62,033 nt of DNA. It comes from Burkholderia sp. lig30. Its GTDB lineage: Bacteria; Pseudomonadota; Gammaproteobacteria; Burkholderiales; Burkholderiaceae. This document shows positions 31,469 to 41,309 of the stretch, one piece after another; the stretch's first letter is position 1; the number at the start of each line of letters is the position of its first letter. The stretch lies in NCBI RefSeq assembly GCF_000687455.2, contig NZ_JGVW01000033.1, forward strand, positions 1-62,033, written 5' to 3'. The position numbers and the translations under genes were made by a program. The notes under the pieces were generated by a model. That model saw only the letters and a list, made by a program, of their open reading frames with translations, was not told the origin of the DNA and did no database searches.

Positions 31469-31562
31469 AACTGCGCTCCCGCCGATTCCGGAGCCGACCC
31501 CGGGAAACTGTGCTCCCGCCGCCTCGGCCTGCTCTGTCCCGTCGGCAACTGTGCTCCTGCCG
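31469..31562 (+). promoter_or_regulatory. three AACTGTGCTCCYGCCG sites upstream of bestrophin-moaA-moaD
   Basis: AACTGCGCTCCCGCCG (31469), AACTGTGCTCCCGCCG (31506) and AACTGTGCTCCTGCCG (31547) are direct repeats, each followed two bases later by a TCGG-like tail. They are spaced 37 and 41 bases apart, and the last lies 160 bases before the bestrophin ATG. The same motif flanks the MocR gene, so a MocR operator is the leading interpretation. Confidence 0.65.
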
Positions 31563-31721
31563 CGTCGGCCGATGTGTGCCTGCCCGCCTGCGTCGAATCC
31601 CCCTAATCTCTGACCATCGCGCACGCCTGCCGTCATCGGCGTCATTCCACACACCGGGCATGGGCTCTGCGCACGGCAGCGCACGCACCGCATCCGAACG
31701 ACTTTATTTCGTCTACCCGCC

Positions 31722-32642
31722 ATGATCGTCAGACCCGCACCCAACTGGTTTCGCATGCTGTTCGTCTGGCGCGGTTCGGTGCTGCAGGCGATCATTCCGC
31801 AACTGGCCTTCATGGCGCTGATCAGCGTGCTCGCGATGTTCACGCACGGCCGCCTGTTCGGCGAGAAAATCCCGCTGAACACCGCGCCGTTTACGCTGTG
31901 CGGCGTCGCGCTGACGATCTTTCTCGCGTTCCGCAACAACGTCAGCTACGAGCGCTTCTGGGAAGCCCGCCGCCTGTGGGGCAACCTGCTGATCTGCTCG
32001 CGTGCGCTGACATCGCAGGTGCTCGCCTACACGCCGGACGATCCGGCCGTGTTCGACCGCGCCGCGTTCGTGCGGCTGATGATCGCCTTCGTCTACGCGT
32101 TCAAGCACCAGCTGCGCGGAACCGACGCGACCGCCGACCTCACGCGACTGCTCGGCCCGTACGCGGCGGCGGCAGCGACCGGCCGCATCTTCACGCCGAT
32201 CGCACTGCTCAACGAAGCACGCCACCGCATCGGCGACCTGAAGCGCAGCGGCGCGCTGTCGGACAGCCAGCTCTGGGCGATCGACACGCAGCTCAACGAA
32301 CTCGGCTCCGCCGTCGGCGGGTGCGAGCGGATCGCATCGACGCCGATTCCGTTCGCGTACGGCGTGCTGCTGCACCGCACCGTCTACGCGTATTGCGCGT
32401 TGCTGCCGTACGGGCTGGTCGACTCGATCGGCTTCGCGACGCCGCTCGTCTGCACGTTCGTGTCCTACACGCTGATCGCGCTCGAAGCGATCGCCAGCGA
32501 GATCGCGCAACCGTTCGGCGTCGCGCCCAACAATCTCGCGCTCGACGCGATGACGCGCAACATCGAGCGCGCGCTCCTCGATCTGTGCGGCGAGACTGCG
32601 CCGCCGGAAACCCGGCCCGATCTGCGCTATCGGCTGACCTGA
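31722..32642 (+). CDS. bestrophin family membrane protein
   Basis: A 306-residue bestrophin-like (UPF0187) anion-channel protein. The family signatures RNNVSYERFWEARRLWGNLL (after the first membrane helices), ERIASTPIPFAYGVLLHRTV and LLPYGLVDSIGFATPLV are clear. Bacterial bestrophins form pentameric channels. The gene is 20 bases upstream of moaA in the same direction, which is unusual and suggests a link to the molybdenum-cofactor unit, perhaps oxyanion or pH balance; this is only an inference. Confidence 0.9.
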   Translation: MIVRPAPNWFRMLFVWRGSVLQAIIPQLAFMALISVLAMFTHGRLFGEKIPLNTAPFTLCGVALTIFLAFRNNVSYERFWEARRLWGNLLICSRALTSQVLAYTPDDPAVFDRAAFVRLMIAFVYAFKHQLRGTDATADLTRLLGPYAAAAATGRIFTPIALLNEARHRIGDLKRSGALSDSQLWAIDTQLNELGSAVGGCERIASTPIPFAYGVLLHRTVYAYCALLPYGLVDSIGFATPLVCTFVSYTLIALEAIASEIAQPFGVAPNNLALDAMTRNIERALLDLCGETAPPETRPDLRYRLT

Positions 32643-32662
32643 CCTGCCCGAAAGGAAATCGC

Positions 32663-33790
32663 ATGCTGACCCGGACCCTCGGACCGATCGTGAACGCCAT
32701 CGCCCCCGCATTACCCGCGGACGCGGCACCCCGTCGCGCCCCGCTCTCCGCCATCGTGAATCCCGCCGACCGGCTCGACCGCCCGCTGCGAGACCTGCGC
32801 CTGTCGGTCATCGACCAGTGCAATTTCCGCTGCACGTACTGCATGCCCCGCGACGTGTTCGACGCCGGCTACCCGTTCCTGCCGTCGTCCGAGCGGCTGT
32901 CGTTCGAGCAGATGGTCCGGACCGCGCAAGCATTCGCGTCGCTCGGCGTCGAAAAAATCCGCATCACCGGCGGCGAGCCGCTGCTGCGGCGCGGGCTCGA
33001 AACGCTGATCGAACGGCTGGCGGCGCTGACGACCGCGAACGGCAAGCCGATGGAAATCGCGCTCACGACGAACGGCACGCTGCTGGCGGAGAAGGCGCGC
33101 GCGCTGCGCGACGCCGGGCTCGGCCGCGTGACGGTGAGCCTCGACGCGGTGGACGACGCGGTGTTCCGGCGCATGACCGACGTCGACGTGCCGGTGTCGC
33201 GCATCCTGCACGGCATCGACGCCGCGCACGCGGCCGGGCTCGCGCCGCTCAAGGTCAACACGGTGATCGAACGCGGCGTGAACGACAGCCAGATCCTGCC
33301 GCTCGTCCGCCTGTTCAAGGGTTCCGGCATCGCGGTGCGGTTCATCGAGTACATGGACGTCGGCGGCGCGAGCTTCTGGTCGAGCGCGAAGGTGCTGACG
33401 GCCGCGCAGACGCGCGACATCGTCGAATCGGCGTTCCCGCTGATCCCGGTCGACACGCCCGAACGTGGCGGCACGTCGGTCAATTACCGGCACGCGGACG
33501 GCTCGGGCGAAGTCGGCTTCATCTCGAGCGTCTCGCAGCCGTTCTGCGGTTCGTGCACGCGGGCGCGCGTGTCGGCCGACGGTCAGCTCTATACGTGCCT
33601 GTTCGCGACACAGGGCACCGACCTGAGGCCGTGGCTGTCCGAGGCCGCATCCGCCGCGCAGCTCGCCGACGCGGTCCGCGCCGTCTGGACCCGCCGCGAC
33701 GACCGCTACTCCGAGCGTCGCGCGACCCGACGCAAGCCCGGGTCGGGCAAGGCTTACCCGACCGTCCGCATGTCGCTGGTGGGCGGCTGA
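32663..33790 (+). CDS. moaA: GTP 3',8-cyclase MoaA
   Basis: Radical-SAM enzyme for the first step of molybdenum-cofactor synthesis (GTP to 3',8-cyclo-dihydro-GTP). The product is 375 residues. The SAM cluster motif CNFRCTYC is at about residues 53-60, the C-terminal second cluster is CGSCTRARVSADGQLYTC, and RITGGEP and SLDAVDD are family motifs. The C-terminus ends MSLVGG with the expected GG-type tail. It has an N-terminal extension of about 40 residues compared with E. coli MoaA. The start follows AAAGGA. It lies between bestrophin and moaD. Confidence 0.95.
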   Translation: MLTRTLGPIVNAIAPALPADAAPRRAPLSAIVNPADRLDRPLRDLRLSVIDQCNFRCTYCMPRDVFDAGYPFLPSSERLSFEQMVRTAQAFASLGVEKIRITGGEPLLRRGLETLIERLAALTTANGKPMEIALTTNGTLLAEKARALRDAGLGRVTVSLDAVDDAVFRRMTDVDVPVSRILHGIDAAHAAGLAPLKVNTVIERGVNDSQILPLVRLFKGSGIAVRFIEYMDVGGASFWSSAKVLTAAQTRDIVESAFPLIPVDTPERGGTSVNYRHADGSGEVGFISSVSQPFCGSCTRARVSADGQLYTCLFATQGTDLRPWLSEAASAAQLADAVRAVWTRRDDRYSERRATRRKPGSGKAYPTVRMSLVGG

Positions 33791-33892
33791 TGGCCGGCGC
33801 GTCCCGCGCGCCATCGCGCGACGAACACACGATGCGGCGATGGGGTTGACGCAGCCTCCGCACGCATCGACATTGACAGCAAGAGGCCCCGC

Positions 33893-34150
33893 ATGAAACT
33901 GACCATCAGATACTTCGCGAGCATTCGCGAACAGCTCGGCATCGCTCAGGAAGTGATGACCATCGACGCGCCGGCGCTGAGCGTAGACTCGCTGCGCACG
34001 CTCCTCGCGTCGAGAGACGCGCGGGCGGCCGATGCGTTGCACCCCGGCCGCCCGGTCCGGACGGCCATCAATCAGGAAATGGTCGCCGGCACGTTCGTGC
34101 TGCGCGATGACTGCGAAGTCGCGTTCTTCCCGCCGGTCACCGGCGGCTGA
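33893..34150 (+). CDS. moaD: molybdopterin synthase small subunit MoaD
   Basis: An 85-residue ubiquitin-like sulfur carrier: IRYFASIREQLG at the N-terminus, AINQEMV and the FFPPVTGG C-terminus whose terminal glycine is activated as a thiocarboxylate. It follows moaA by 102 bases, with no moaE adjacent, so the large subunit must come from elsewhere. Confidence 0.93.
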   Translation: MKLTIRYFASIREQLGIAQEVMTIDAPALSVDSLRTLLASRDARAADALHPGRPVRTAINQEMVAGTFVLRDDCEVAFFPPVTGG

Positions 34151-34212
34151 GACGCGCGCGGCCGGACAGCGGTTCGGCGGTTCGCCGCCCCGCGCCGCAC
34201 GCCTTCCGGGCG

Positions 34213-34515
34213 TCAGCCTGCGCGGCCGGAGCCGGCTCCCGCCACCGTCTCGCAGAGCGCGCGCCCCGGCCCGGTCAGCGTGGCCATCCCGCGCCCTTCC
34301 TCGTCGATGTCGAAGTCGGCCAGGCCGGCCGACTTCAGCATCGTGAGCGTCCGGCGCAGCGTGCTCATCGGCAGCGCGGCGCGCTTTGCGAGCTTCGCCA
34401 GCGTCCACGGCTTGCCGGAACCGTCGGCGGACGCCATCCAGAGTTGCTCCAGAACCACGGCGACGACCGGGTCGAATTCGGCGTCGGCCGCCTGTCCCGA
34501 TTGCGGTTCGTTCAT
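34213..34515 (-). CDS. winged-helix regulator, MarR/IclR-like, small
   Basis: A 100-residue DNA-binding protein consisting of a single winged helix (PWTLAKLAKRAALPMSTLRRTLTMLKSAGLADFDID, then GMATLTGPG as wing). No sensor domain. It points left toward moaD (convergent), and its upstream region holds two copies of the ACTGTGCTC motif, so it is probably part of the same regulon as the moa genes. Confidence 0.82.
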   Translation of the reverse strand: MNEPQSGQAADAEFDPVVAVVLEQLWMASADGSGKPWTLAKLAKRAALPMSTLRRTLTMLKSAGLADFDIDEEGRGMATLTGPGRALCETVAGAGSGRAG

Positions 34516-34600
34516 GTTCGCCCTTCCTGTACAGCAGTTGCGACAGCGCCGATTCTAGCCGCGGCGCGCCGGCCCGCGCCGGCCTGACACGCGATCCGCA

Positions 34601-34641
34601 TACTGTGCTCGCCGCGCTGCCCGCAAGCTGTGCTCCTCCGA
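34601..34641 (+). promoter_or_regulatory. two ACTGTGCTC-type sites upstream of the small regulator
   Basis: TACTGTGCTCGCCGCG (34601) and AGCTGTGCTCCTCCGA (34626) are direct repeats whose TGTGC cores are 25 bases apart. They lie between the start of the leftward winged-helix gene (34515) and the end of the MocR gene (34669). Confidence 0.6.
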
Positions 34642-34668
34642 TCGGGCCGCACACCGGCACGCGCCGCG

Positions 34669-36093
34669 TCAGCCGGCCAGCGTCGAGACCAGTTTGCCGA
34701 CGGTGATCACCGCCTGCTCGATGTCGCCGGACCACGGGCTGCTGTAGTTCAGCCGGATGAAATTCCGGTACGCATCCGAGGTCGAGAACATGTAGCCCGG
34801 CCCGATCGTGATGCCCCGCTCGAGCGCGAGCTGATACAGGCGCATCGAATCGACCTTCGGCGGCAACTCGATCCACAGCACGTAGCCGCCCGCCGGGCAG
34901 GACATGCGGGTGCCGTCGGGAAAGAACCGCGACACCATCGCGCGCATCAGGCTCGCCTGCTGCGCGTAGGCCTTCCTGACCCGCCGCAGCTGATGTTCAT
35001 AGCCGTCCCGTTCGAGGTATTCCGCGATCGCGAGCTGCGGAATCGCCGGCGTCGCGAGGGTGTTCAGGAACTTGAGCTTCTCGACCTGATCGCGATAGCG
35101 GCCCGGCAGCGCCCAGCCGATCCGGTAGGCGGCCGTCAGGCTCTTCGAGAACGATCCGCAATGCAGGACGAGCCCCCGGGTATCGTAGGACTTCAACGTG
35201 CTCGGGTGCGTGTCGCCGAAATACAGCTCGTTGTACACGCCGTTCTCGATGACCGGAACGTCCTTCTTCGTCAGCAGCTCGACCAGCTCGCGCTTGCGCG
35301 CGTCCGGCATCTGAAAGCCGAGCGGGTTCTGGAAGTTCGGCATCACCATGCACGCGGCAACCGGCTGCGATTCCATGATCGCGGCGAGCGCCGCGATGTC
35401 GATGCCGTGCTCCGGATGCGTCGACACTTCGATCGCCTTCATCCCCATCCGCTCGATCGCGTGCAGCATCGCATAGAAGGTCGGCGATTCGACGGCAATC
35501 ACGTCGCCGGGTTTCGCGACCGCCTGCAGGCACAGGTTGATCGCCTCGGTCGCGCCGATCGTGACGACGATCTCGTTCGGATCGACCGGCATGCCGTTTT
35601 CGAGGTAGCGCCGCGCGATCTGGCGCACGAGCGCCGGCGTGCCGGGCGGCAGCGCGTCCGTCACGCACCAGCGCGTCTTGTCGCGGCCGGCCGCGTACGC
35701 GTAGCGGTTCAGTTTTTCGAACGGAAACAGGCTCGGATCGGGATACGGCGAGCCCAGCGGCACCGCATCGTCGGTGCCGATCGCGCGCAAGGTCGACAGC
35801 ACCAGCCGGCTCACGTCGACCGACGACGACGTGGCGATCGGCCTGGTCGGCTGGAGCTCGCGCAACGGGCTTTCGCCGTCGCCGCTTCTCAGGCTGACGA
35901 AATAGCCGGACTGGGGCCGGCTCTCGACCAGGCCGCGGCTCTCCAGCAGCAGATACGCGTGAATCACGGTGGTGATGCTGAGCCGGTGCTGCTGGCTGGT
36001 CTGCCGGACCGACGGCACGCGATCGCCGTAGCTGTACACGCCTTGCCGGATCAGTTTCTCGATATCGTCCGCCAGCTTTTCGTAAAGTTTCAT
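34669..36093 (-). CDS. MocR-type regulator (GntR helix-turn-helix plus aminotransferase domain)
   Basis: A 474-residue MocR protein, YdcR-like. Residues 1-68 are a GntR winged helix (GVYSYGDRVPSVRQTSQQHRLS...TTVIHAYLLLESRGLVESRP); residues about 100-470 are a fold-type I aminotransferase domain with PLP lysine K317 (CGSFSKSLTAAYRIGW). The residue that normally binds the pyridine nitrogen is Asn284 (IENGVYNEL) instead of the Asp of YdcR (EDDVY). The start follows GGAAGGGGGG. Much longer open frames running through here on both strands are shadows. It is divergent from the molybdopterin oxidoreductase, and ACTGTGCTC sites lie between them. Confidence 0.93.
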   Translation of the reverse strand: MKLYEKLADDIEKLIRQGVYSYGDRVPSVRQTSQQHRLSITTVIHAYLLLESRGLVESRPQSGYFVSLRSGDGESPLRELQPTRPIATSSSVDVSRLVLSTLRAIGTDDAVPLGSPYPDPSLFPFEKLNRYAYAAGRDKTRWCVTDALPPGTPALVRQIARRYLENGMPVDPNEIVVTIGATEAINLCLQAVAKPGDVIAVESPTFYAMLHAIERMGMKAIEVSTHPEHGIDIAALAAIMESQPVAACMVMPNFQNPLGFQMPDARKRELVELLTKKDVPVIENGVYNELYFGDTHPSTLKSYDTRGLVLHCGSFSKSLTAAYRIGWALPGRYRDQVEKLKFLNTLATPAIPQLAIAEYLERDGYEHQLRRVRKAYAQQASLMRAMVSRFFPDGTRMSCPAGGYVLWIELPPKVDSMRLYQLALERGITIGPGYMFSTSDAYRNFIRLNYSSPWSGDIEQAVITVGKLVSTLAG

Positions 36094-36182
36094 CGCCCCC
36101 CTTCCCCGCGCGACGGTTCGCAGTCTGGCCTGCTGCGGCGTCCGGTCGCGGCACAGATTCCGCGCCGCCGAGATGCTAACAG

Positions 36183-36215
36183 AACTGTGCTCTTGCGACC
36201 CCGCCGGATGTGTGC
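36183..36215 (+). promoter_or_regulatory. ACTGTGCTC-type site between MocR and oxidoreductase genes
   Basis: AACTGTGCTCTTGCGA (36183-36198) matches the sites at 31469-31562. A weaker TGTGC core follows 25 bases later (36211), the same core spacing as at 34601-34641. The position between divergent starts (36093 and 36322) suits joint control and autoregulation by MocR. Confidence 0.6.
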
Positions 36216-38772: not shown

Positions 38773-38979
38773 TCACTCGAGCTCGATGTCGCCGCCGAAC
38801 GCGACCTTCAGCTTCAGGCCGGCGACTTCCAGCGTGATCGTGGCCGGCAGCGTCTCGCTCCCCGTCACGTCGCCGCTGGCCGCGGCCTGCGCGACCGCGT
38901 GCTCGATCTCGCGCTGCGCGGCGATGCCGAAAGACTTCAGCAGCTTGCGAATGCTCATGTTCAGCGTTTCGTCGTTCAT
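38773..38979 (-). CDS. DUF6494 family protein
   Basis: A 68-residue acidic soluble protein (MNDETLNMSIRKLLKSFGI, then a beta-rich GLKLKVAFGGDIELE). GGGAG lies six bases upstream of the ATG at 38979; an ATG two codons earlier abuts that site. I associate it with DUF6494 from memory; function unknown. It converges on the oxidoreductase. Confidence 0.8.
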   Translation of the reverse strand: MNDETLNMSIRKLLKSFGIAAQREIEHAVAQAAASGDVTGSETLPATITLEVAGLKLKVAFGGDIELE

Positions 38980-39791: not shown

Positions 39792-41309
39792 TCAGCGGCT
39801 CGACGGGAAGCTGAACACCGTCCCTTCGCGCACGCCGGCCGACGGCCAGCGCTGCGTGATCGTCTTGCGCTTCGTGTAGAAGCGCACGCCATCCGGGCCG
39901 TACGCGTGCAGGTCGCCGAACAGCGAGCGCTTCCAGCCGCCGAACGAGTGGTACGCGACCGGCACCGGCAGCGGCACGTTGATGCCGACCATGCCGATCT
40001 GGATGTTGTCGCTGAAGAAGCGCGCCGCCTCGCCGTCGCGCGTGAACAGGCAGGTGCCGTTGCCGTATTCGTGTGCATCGATCAGCGCCATCGCTTCGCC
40101 GAGCGACGCGACGCGCACGACGCCGAGCACCGGCCCGAAGATCTCGTGCTGATAGATCGGCATGCCCGGCTTCACGTGGTCGAACAGGCACGGGCCGAGG
40201 TAGTAGCCGCCGTCGTGGCCCGGCACCTTCACGCCGCGGCCGTCGACCACCAGCGTCGCGCCCGCCGCGACACCCGCCTCGACGAAGCCCGTCACCTTGT
40301 CGAAATGCTGCTGCGTGACGAGCGGCCCCATGTCGACGCCCTGCTCGACGCCCGGGCCGACCTTCATCTTTGCGATTTCGGCCTGGATGCCCGCCACCAC
40401 CGCATCCCCCGTCTCGTCGCCGATCGCGACGACCAGCGGAATCGCCATGCAGCGCTCGCCGCACGAGCCGTACGCCGCGCCCATCAGCGCGTTCACCGCG
40501 TTGCCGATGTCCGCGTCCGGCATCACGACCGCGAAGTTCTTCGCGCCGCCGAGCGCCTGCACGCGCTTGCCGTGCGCGCAGCCGGTCGTGTAGATGTATT
40601 CGGCGATCGGCGTCGAGCCGACGAAGCTCACCGCCTTCACGCGCGCGTCGGTCAGGATCGTGTCGACCGCTTCCTTGTCGCCGTTGACGACGTTCAGCAC
40701 GCCCGGCGGCAGGCCGGCTTCCAGCGCCAGCTCGGCCATCCGCAGCGTCGACGACGGCGTGCGCTCCGACGGCTTCAGCACGAACGTGTTGCCGCACACG
40801 ACGGCCATCGGCCACATCCACAGCGGCACCATGATCGGGAAGTTGAACGGCGTGATCCCGGCGACGACGCCGAGCGCCTGGAACTCGCTCCACGAGTCGA
40901 TCGCGGGGCCGACGTTCTTGCTGTGCTCGCCCTTCAGCAGCTCGGGCGCGTAGCTCGCGTATTCGACGTTCTCGATGCCGCGCTGCAGTTCGCCCATCGC
41001 GTCGGCGAGCACCTTGCCGTGCTCGGCCGTGATCAGCGCGCACAGCTCGTCCGCATGCTCCTCGAGCAGCGTCTTGAAGCGGCTCATCACGCGGGCGCGC
41101 TTCAGCGGCGGCGTGTTGCGCCATGCCGGAAACGCGGCCTGCGCGGACGCGATGGCCGCCTCGACGGTCGGCTTGTCCGCGAGCATGACGCTCTTGTTCG
41201 ATGCGCCCGTGGCCGGATCGAACACCGGCTGGACGCGGCTGCCGCCGTCGACGCGCTTGCCGTCGATCAGGTGGCCGAGAGTGGAGGTGACGTTGCTATC
41301 GTGTTTCAT
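39792..41309 (-). CDS. mmsA: methylmalonate/malonate-semialdehyde dehydrogenase (acylating)
   Basis: CoA-acylating aldehyde dehydrogenase of 505 residues, NAD-dependent, converting malonate or methylmalonate semialdehyde to acetyl- or propionyl-CoA. Signatures are ITPFNFPIMVPLWMWPMAV (NAD site), FVGSTPIAEYIY, and the catalytic Cys287 in GSCGERCMAIP, which fits the MMSDH subgroup. It lies 49 bases downstream of the omega-aminotransferase gene and probably completes beta-alanine degradation. No ribosome-binding site decides the start; MKHDSN (41309) fits the family. Confidence 0.94.
   Translation of the reverse strand: MKHDSNVTSTLGHLIDGKRVDGGSRVQPVFDPATGASNKSVMLADKPTVEAAIASAQAAFPAWRNTPPLKRARVMSRFKTLLEEHADELCALITAEHGKVLADAMGELQRGIENVEYASYAPELLKGEHSKNVGPAIDSWSEFQALGVVAGITPFNFPIMVPLWMWPMAVVCGNTFVLKPSERTPSSTLRMAELALEAGLPPGVLNVVNGDKEAVDTILTDARVKAVSFVGSTPIAEYIYTTGCAHGKRVQALGGAKNFAVVMPDADIGNAVNALMGAAYGSCGERCMAIPLVVAIGDETGDAVVAGIQAEIAKMKVGPGVEQGVDMGPLVTQQHFDKVTGFVEAGVAAGATLVVDGRGVKVPGHDGGYYLGPCLFDHVKPGMPIYQHEIFGPVLGVVRVASLGEAMALIDAHEYGNGTCLFTRDGEAARFFSDNIQIGMVGINVPLPVPVAYHSFGGWKRSLFGDLHAYGPDGVRFYTKRKTITQRWPSAGVREGTVFSFPSSR

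Follow-up and report, generated by a model that had tools for sequence, protein, structure and literature searches.

A Two-Box Operator Predicted for a MocR-Type Regulator before Molybdenum Cofactor and ydeP-like Genes of Burkholderia sp. lig30

A stretch of 62,033 nucleotides from the genome of Burkholderia sp. lig30 (contig NZ_JGVW01000033.1; hereafter, the window) raises the question of whether a motif repeated around a mocR gene marks a regulon joining genes of molybdenum cofactor (Moco) synthesis with an oxidoreductase gene. An earlier note on this DNA had proposed such a regulon from six motif copies in three intergenic regions, located at the bestrophin-moaA-moaD operon, at a small winged-helix gene, and between the divergent mocR and ydeP genes. 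The proposal was supported for bestrophin-moaA-moaD and mocR/ydeP, judging by the candidate operator found there, its near-confinement to this contig and its recurrence in relatives, and was not supported for the winged-helix region. On the whole, sequence comparison makes it fairly probable that MocR binds the sites 31547–31579 and 36183–36215, activating bestrophin-moaA-moaD and ydeP together.

Two-Box Operator and Its Matrix

Relatives of the window MocR (75–87% identity) were collected from 78 distinct loci, representing the best 80 of 416 candidates. In most of these loci, a conserved AACTGTACTC (written here as AACTGTGCTC) lies upstream of mocR, with GATGTGTGC or a similar sequence beyond a 14-base gap. 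The conserved unit is the two-box operator AACTGTRCTC-N14-RDTNTGTGY, a direct repeat with boxes 25 nt apart, or about 2.4 helical turns. When the 400 bases upstream of mocR were scanned with the consensus, 64 of the 78 loci matched it at 14 or more of its 19 letters. A 39-position matrix was built from those 64 sites, none of them from the window, with similar sequences down-weighted to an effective number of 16.6.

According to the matrix, the three best sites of the window, all on the + strand, start at 36181 (38.4 bits), 31545 (15.2 bits), and 34599 (10.6 bits), and the next one scores −2.1 bits; the best score in the reversed window was 4.5. Over 200 Markov-1 sequences as long as the window, the maximum averaged 4.0, with 17.07 as the highest value. 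The scores of 34599 (10.56 bits), 31545 (15.18 bits), and 36181 (38.35 bits) were reached in 6, 1, and 0 of these 200 sequences, respectively. Judged by such scores, the 36181 site is a real operator signal beyond doubt, the 31545 site is a good candidate, made firmer by the in-register −10 hexamer and by sites of its class in relatives, and the 34599 site is marginal. The site before bestrophin was found although sites before bestrophin or moaA were outside the training set. The sites of the window and the associated promoter elements are as follows.

36183..36215, + strand: two-box operator between the divergent mocR and ydeP, directed toward ydeP; box A 36183–36192, box B 36207–36215; 0 mismatches; 38.4 bits
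31547..31579, + strand: two-box operator before bestrophin-moaA-moaD; box A AACTGTGCTC 31547–31556, box B GATGTGTGC 31571–31579; 0 mismatches; 15.2 bits
36240..36245, + strand: TACGAT, predicted −10 hexamer for ydeP at 31 nt from motif position 26
31604..31609, + strand: TAATCT, predicted −10 hexamer for bestrophin-moaA-moaD at 31 nt from motif position 26
34601..34633, + strand: weak pair resembling the operator before the winged-helix gene, TACTGTGCTC with AAGCTGTGC; 2 mismatches; 10.6 bits
31506..31515, + strand: extra box A (upstream copy) with no box B in register; 22 of 24 bases in common with the 31547 copy
31469..31478, + strand: extra diverged box A, AACTGCGCTC, with no box B

Both the 31547 and 36183 sites have two boxes at the fixed spacing, stand before a predicted target gene, and are followed by a TAnnnT hexamer at 31 nt. 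Their second box, GATGTGTGC, was absent from the list of the earlier note, which had described six copies or near-copies of a 16-mer. Four of these were recovered, at 31506 and 31547 (exact), 31469 (1 mismatch), and 36183 (3 mismatches to the 16-mer, exact for AACTGTGCTC); the copies at 34601 and 34626 differ from the 16-mer by more than 3 mismatches, with cores CTGTGCTC present at 34603 and 34628. The exact 16-mer was rejected as the operator: its suffix CYGCCG is a local repeat common only to the three copies before bestrophin and does not belong to the operator. The near-identity of the 31506 and 31547 copies is as expected after local duplication.

By count, the 16-mer (4 window matches) is barely unusual, since at least 4 matches were reached in 6 of 100 shuffles; for the core CTGTGCTC (6 copies), at least 6 were reached in 3 of 100. 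That no copy occurs elsewhere in the window is correct for the 10-mer AACTGTGCTC and incorrect for the core, which is found once more at 40921, inside a long open reading frame (ORF) of the opposite strand. The own whole genome contains 5 copies of AACTGTGCTC, 3 of these in the window; the other two were rejected as operators, with best matrix scores of −4.6 and 3.2 bits, the copy in locus L004 lying within an ORF. It is the second box GATGTGTGC, the fixed spacing, and the conservation, and not plain counts, that make the motif more than chance.

Promoter Layout

The position of the −10 element was analyzed for 190 distinct sites above 10 bits from relatives and the window, which are related to one another and include the training sites. 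In 155 of the 190 sites, the TAnnnT hexamer lies 31 nt from motif position 26, versus an average of 0.56 and no more than 9 sites at other distances. Among 83 representatives less than 75% identical, the hexamer occurs at 31 nt in 62 and at any other distance in at most 8. By the gene faced, it was found at 31 nt in sites of bestrophin (5/5), lysR (32/32), mocR (27/27), moaA (37/38), ydeP (36/44), fdhD (12/30), and no named gene (6/14), and 31 nt is the commonest distance in each of the six target classes. As for the −35 element, at most 4 of the 190 sites match TTGACA at four letters at the three possible places, and none does better. The −10 hexamer at one distance and the missing −35 element predict an activator-dependent promoter, in which the activator stands in for the −35 element. 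A candidate −10 in the reverse direction, seen at offset 3 in 105 of 122 sites, was rejected, being box A read backwards.

Distribution across Genomes

In the own 5.5-Mb genome, the pattern with up to 2 mismatches is matched at 4 places, of which 3 lie in the window; its reversed form is matched nowhere. The fourth match (C49, L087) was discarded as an operator with a matrix score of −1.1 bits. Within the genus, at up to 1 mismatch, the pattern is matched one to three times per genome in 54 of 65 genomes, and its reverse in none of the 65; in the remaining 11 genomes, the mocR-ydeP gap contains a matrix match scoring 12.1 to 29.7 bits. Hence, neither of the outcomes that the earlier note regarded as contrary to a regulon was observed: the motif is not scattered genome-wide, with three of the four own-genome matches on this contig, and it is not absent upstream of the orthologous clusters that keep MocR, being found by the pattern in 54 of 65 genomes and by the matrix in the other 11.

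A strict pattern match is present in 50 of 51 genus genomes with MocR of at least 75% identity (fragments included, among the matches listed) versus 4 of 14 others (Fisher p = 5.7e-8). Since the 11 genomes without a strict match also carry the matrix operator, nearly all genomes show the co-occurrence, which therefore does not distinguish MocR from other widespread genes. Three outliers of the genus-wide search (L165–L167, 10.8 to 20.0 bits) were set aside, as the surrounding 2.5–3.7 kb contain no cluster genes.

Of 160 genomes drawn from the family, 55 contain a match to the pattern and 1 to its reverse; among the 144 genomes outside the genus, the pattern is matched in 42. Some family-level matches, near-identical within one genus, resemble a conserved coding stretch. 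The recurrent match AACTGTGCTCAGTCTGC... in one genus was not accepted, one example (L182) scoring below 8 bits. At class level, the other 320 of 321 genomes searched yielded no MocR match of E 1e-150 or better.

Genes at the Operator in Relatives

Sites in the 78 mocR loci are located before mocR, moaA, ydeP, and lysR and in the fdhD/cydA gap, and one match lies within a predicted gene (L042). An upstream matrix match above 8 bits accompanies 66 of the 78 mocR relatives, 64 of which form the training set. The other 12 loci (L016, L018, L021, L031, L034, L038, L044, L046, L048, L051, L053, and L058) have no operator and show a different conserved upstream stretch, AACTGTCACTTACATTCG or close to it; in 10 of the 12 cases, the organism has another listed locus with the operator.

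Twenty genus regions with MocR were chosen for comparison. In 17 of them mocR and ydeP are adjacent, with the operator in that gap and pointing at ydeP in all 17; the winged-helix gene is present in 15 of these loci and bestrophin in 14. By this comparison, the window cluster is the local form of the genus mocR-ydeP locus. Of the other three regions, two have the operator at mocR with lysR or moaA, and L142 has none. Another 20 chosen regions comprise 17 second sites with the order moaA, moeA, fdhD, then cydA, cydB, bestrophin, and three outliers without cluster genes. All 17 second sites have operators in both places, scoring 12.7 to 24.4 bits at moaA and, for the best match in the fdhD/cydA gap, 12.8 to 19.9 bits. 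Among 15 chosen regions from other genera of the family, a matrix match was found in 14, each near mocR, ydeP, fdhD, or lysR, and none in L182. In L177 and L180, the operator still stands before ydeP although mocR is downstream rather than divergent.

As for the third region of the earlier note, the pair at 34601 before the winged-helix gene is weak, with 2 mismatches and no TAnnnT hexamer at the fixed distance, and was not seen in relatives. No matrix match was found beside the winged-helix gene in 15 genus regions holding this gene (above 4 bits) or in 4 regions of other genera (above 8 bits). Probably, the 34601 site is not functional, and our reading of its sequence is that it arose by chance or local duplication.

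Genes in the relatives' loci, named by Pfam, encode CydA, CydB, MoaE, MoeA, FdhD, DyP peroxidase, encapsulin, and others. In one locus (L037:2636-4559), the DyP peroxidase gene adjoins the encapsulin gene beside a lysR-mocR pair, likewise in L032, L052, and L057; no matrix match is listed there in these four loci. In another locus, L168 (G099:C35), a 4-kb stretch around fdhD holds three operators (22.9 to 29.5 bits). The locus of Paraburkholderia xenovorans LB400, a non-pathogenic laboratory strain, has one operator at mocR/lysR (35.3 bits) and one between bestrophin and moaA (30.5 bits) (L057).

Proposed Regulon and Alternative Explanations

The findings described above suggest that MocR (34669–36093) very probably binds the two operators and that it probably activates its target genes. 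Joint activation of bestrophin-moaA-moaD and ydeP would raise the cofactor supply along with the enzyme needing the cofactor. Box B, at about −43 to −37, would let a MocR dimer recruit RNA polymerase at a promoter without a −35 element, pyridoxal 5'-phosphate (PLP) or a PLP adduct would set the state of MocR, and mocR would be autoregulated from the gap shared with ydeP. The FdhF/YdeP enzyme might oxidize formate or a related one-carbon compound, served by Moco synthesis and FdhD. Heme-copper oxidases are inhibited by both formate and cyanide; in relatives, the bd-type oxidase would keep respiration running when they are poisoned. The gene set reads as a sequence of steps: make Moco, sulfurate it (FdhD), use it in the FdhF/YdeP enzyme, and, in relatives, respire via bd oxidase.

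Published systems include several similar cases. MocR-subfamily regulons (Suvorova and Rodionov 2016, PMC5320631) have, as here, a GntR winged helix with an aminotransferase-like domain, repeated boxes, and autoregulated neighbor genes; oxidoreductases and cytochrome oxidases are named among the targets. Its main text does not contain "molybd", "FdhD", "bestrophin", or "formate", and its supplements may still predict the group. MocR-type regulators control genes of cyanide-linked respiration in two Pseudomonas (PMC10790758, PMC8567248). MpaR of P. aeruginosa is encoded beside respiratory genes, with its motif 61–62 nt upstream of starts and the same lysine-tyrosine pocket spacing as here, and differs in its motif (ATCTGAT), its targets (ccoN4 and nirA), and its signal, cyanide (PMC10790758). 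The MocR of the P. pseudoalcaligenes cio cluster is encoded divergently from a cluster with the cyanide-insensitive oxidase and is reported to be a repressor; "molybd" is absent from the text (PMC8567248). In P. putida, formate raises two FdhF/YdeP genes, fdhD, moaA, moaB-II, and cioAB (PMC10308882), much the same gene set as the operator targets here. GvgR, a MocR of P. fluorescens WH6, is also linked with Moco genes, moeA1 and moaB1 rising in gvgR, gvgA, and gvgC knockouts; it differs in activating a secondary-metabolite cluster, and its Moco effect is probably indirect, since it is also seen in non-regulator mutants (PMC8067088). Searches for MocR with molybdenum cofactor, cytochrome bd, or Burkholderia ydeP/moaA/cydA found no description of this MocR-Moco-ydeP-bd regulon in the parts of the open literature considered.

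Taken together, the formate-induced gene set of P. putida and the cyanide-linked MocR regulators point to a respiratory poison as the common theme. That formate or another such poison is the signal is a guess; by this analogy, a formate-like signal read by MocR is conceivable and doubtful. Somewhat less likely still is the full scheme, in which a one-protein PLP-based sensor of formate-like or cyanide-like respiratory poisoning would fire, via one promoter layout, a rescue program of moaA, moaD, moaE, moeA, FdhD, a formate-dehydrogenase-like enzyme, an anion channel, and bd oxidase. If true, this program would be a new kind of link between a PLP sensor and Moco supply. For the MocR clade, mostly from Burkholderiaceae, the analysis supplies predictions of operator, promoter layout, and gene set; FdhF/YdeP enzymes, about whose role little is known, would be tied to cofactor supply and, in relatives, to bd oxidase.

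It is unlikely that MocR binds the operators as a repressor released by an effector, as reported for the cio-cluster MocR of P. pseudoalcaligenes, the mutant of which makes cio proteins constitutively (PMC8567248, citing unpublished data). The operator ends at the place of the −35 element, with the −10 at one distance and no −35 seen, which is the usual layout of an activated promoter and argues against repression of the targets. For mocR itself, repression would fit a −10-like hexamer 4 nt from box A in the mocR direction in 17 of 122 sites (TAGCAT, 36173–36178, in the window). A response to cyanide, with a PLP-cyanohydrin formed in MocR as the signal, as proposed for MpaR, is a weaker candidate still. 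It agrees with the equal distance of 30 residues between the pocket lysine and tyrosine here (K317, Y287) and in MpaR (K314, Y284; PMC10790758) and with the bd oxidase genes at the operator in relatives. On the other side, the MpaR motif ATCTGAT differs from the operator found here (PMC10790758). We also know of no part played by Moco, FdhD, or FdhF/YdeP genes in cyanide resistance.

The operator might instead belong to another regulator, the winged-helix or the LysR protein, whose genes adjoin sites in many loci: 32 of 190 sites face lysR, and L175 has a site with lysR and no mocR in 15 kb. Such ownership is very unlikely. The winged-helix gene was found by tblastn in 0 of 78 mocR loci, though 66 of them carry the operator; no member of that lysR cluster is present in the window, lysR relatives occur in 3 of 20 genus MocR regions, and it is simpler to regard lysR, as a regulator, as being itself a target. 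Chance or local duplication without regulatory meaning would fit the weak simple counts, the duplicated appearance of 31506/31547, and the score of 34599 reached in 6 of 200 random sequences; for 31547 and 36183 it is contradicted by conservation, spacing, reversed-pattern controls, and the −10 register, so that as a general explanation it is scarcely credible.

Several observations weigh against activation by MocR through these operators, which is nevertheless the reading preferred here. Sites from related species are not independent of one another. The hexamer at 31 nt is missing in 8 of 44 ydeP-facing, 18 of 30 fdhD-facing, and 8 of 14 unassigned sites. The MocRs of the 12 operator-less loci (83–84% identical) are as near the window MocR as many operator-bearing ones, and in G009, one of the genomes lacking a strict match, the region of an 82% identical MocR (L142) contains no matrix match. 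No mocR was found in the fetched DNA of the site-bearing loci L168 and L175 or in the 7-kb second-site regions, and in the own genome no operator was found at fdhD or at any of the three cydA genes within the 3.7–4.5 kb examined. The 25-nt spacing differs from the two or three turns given for known MocR direct repeats (PMC5320631), and "GntR" does not occur in the text of the P. putida formate paper, which names no operator in the parts considered (PMC10308882).

MocR Protein and Other Genes of the Window

The annotated genes of the cluster are listed below.

34669..36093, − strand: MocR-type regulator (GntR winged helix and aminotransferase-like domain; lysine 317), PF00392, PF00155
36322..38649, + strand: ydeP-like molybdenum oxidoreductase, FdhF/YdeP family, TIGR01701 (960 bits, cut-off 582)
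31722..32642, + strand: bestrophin, PF25539
32663..33790, + strand: moaA, GTP 3',8-cyclase, TIGR02666 (355 bits, cut-off 284)
33893..34150, + strand: moaD/ThiS-like sulfur carrier, PF02597
34213..34515, − strand: small winged-helix protein, PF12840

The window MocR has the GntR winged helix, the aminotransferase-like domain, and the lysine at the PLP position that define the MocR/GabR subfamily. The N-terminal winged helix covers residues 3–66 (PF00392, E 4.5e-12); the C-terminal domain of fold type I matches PF00155 (E 4e-32), and the solved GabR (4n0b) is matched over residues 8–402. As for known families, among the best 25 of 71 NCBIfam families the protein is under the curated cut-off of each named MocR model: PdxR (259 of 320), YczR (238 of 487), EhuR (171 of 480), rhizopine MocR (141 of 650), GabR (98 of 600), and PtsJ (90 of 573).

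In an alignment of 92 relatives (66 + 12 + 14, the last 14 from the 17 mocR-ydeP genus loci), K317 of the window MocR is present in all 92 and Y287 in 91. Residue 284, three residues before the tyrosine, is Asn (88) or Ser (4) among them, versus Asp in 1x0m, the best-scoring solved match. In aspartate aminotransferase, this aspartate is Asp222, the partner of the PLP ring nitrogen. The pocket of the N284 clade is possibly a non-catalytic sensing pocket. A match to a MocR paralogue at G008:C3:1000629-1002038 has one internal TAG and may represent a pseudogene.

The ydeP-like protein is below the narrower YdeP equivalog NF007406 (859 of 1473). Relatives of the winged-helix protein are encoded near, and often directly behind, a MocR of about 70% identity in many genus genomes. 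A DUF6494 gene (38773–38979) is convergent with ydeP in the window.

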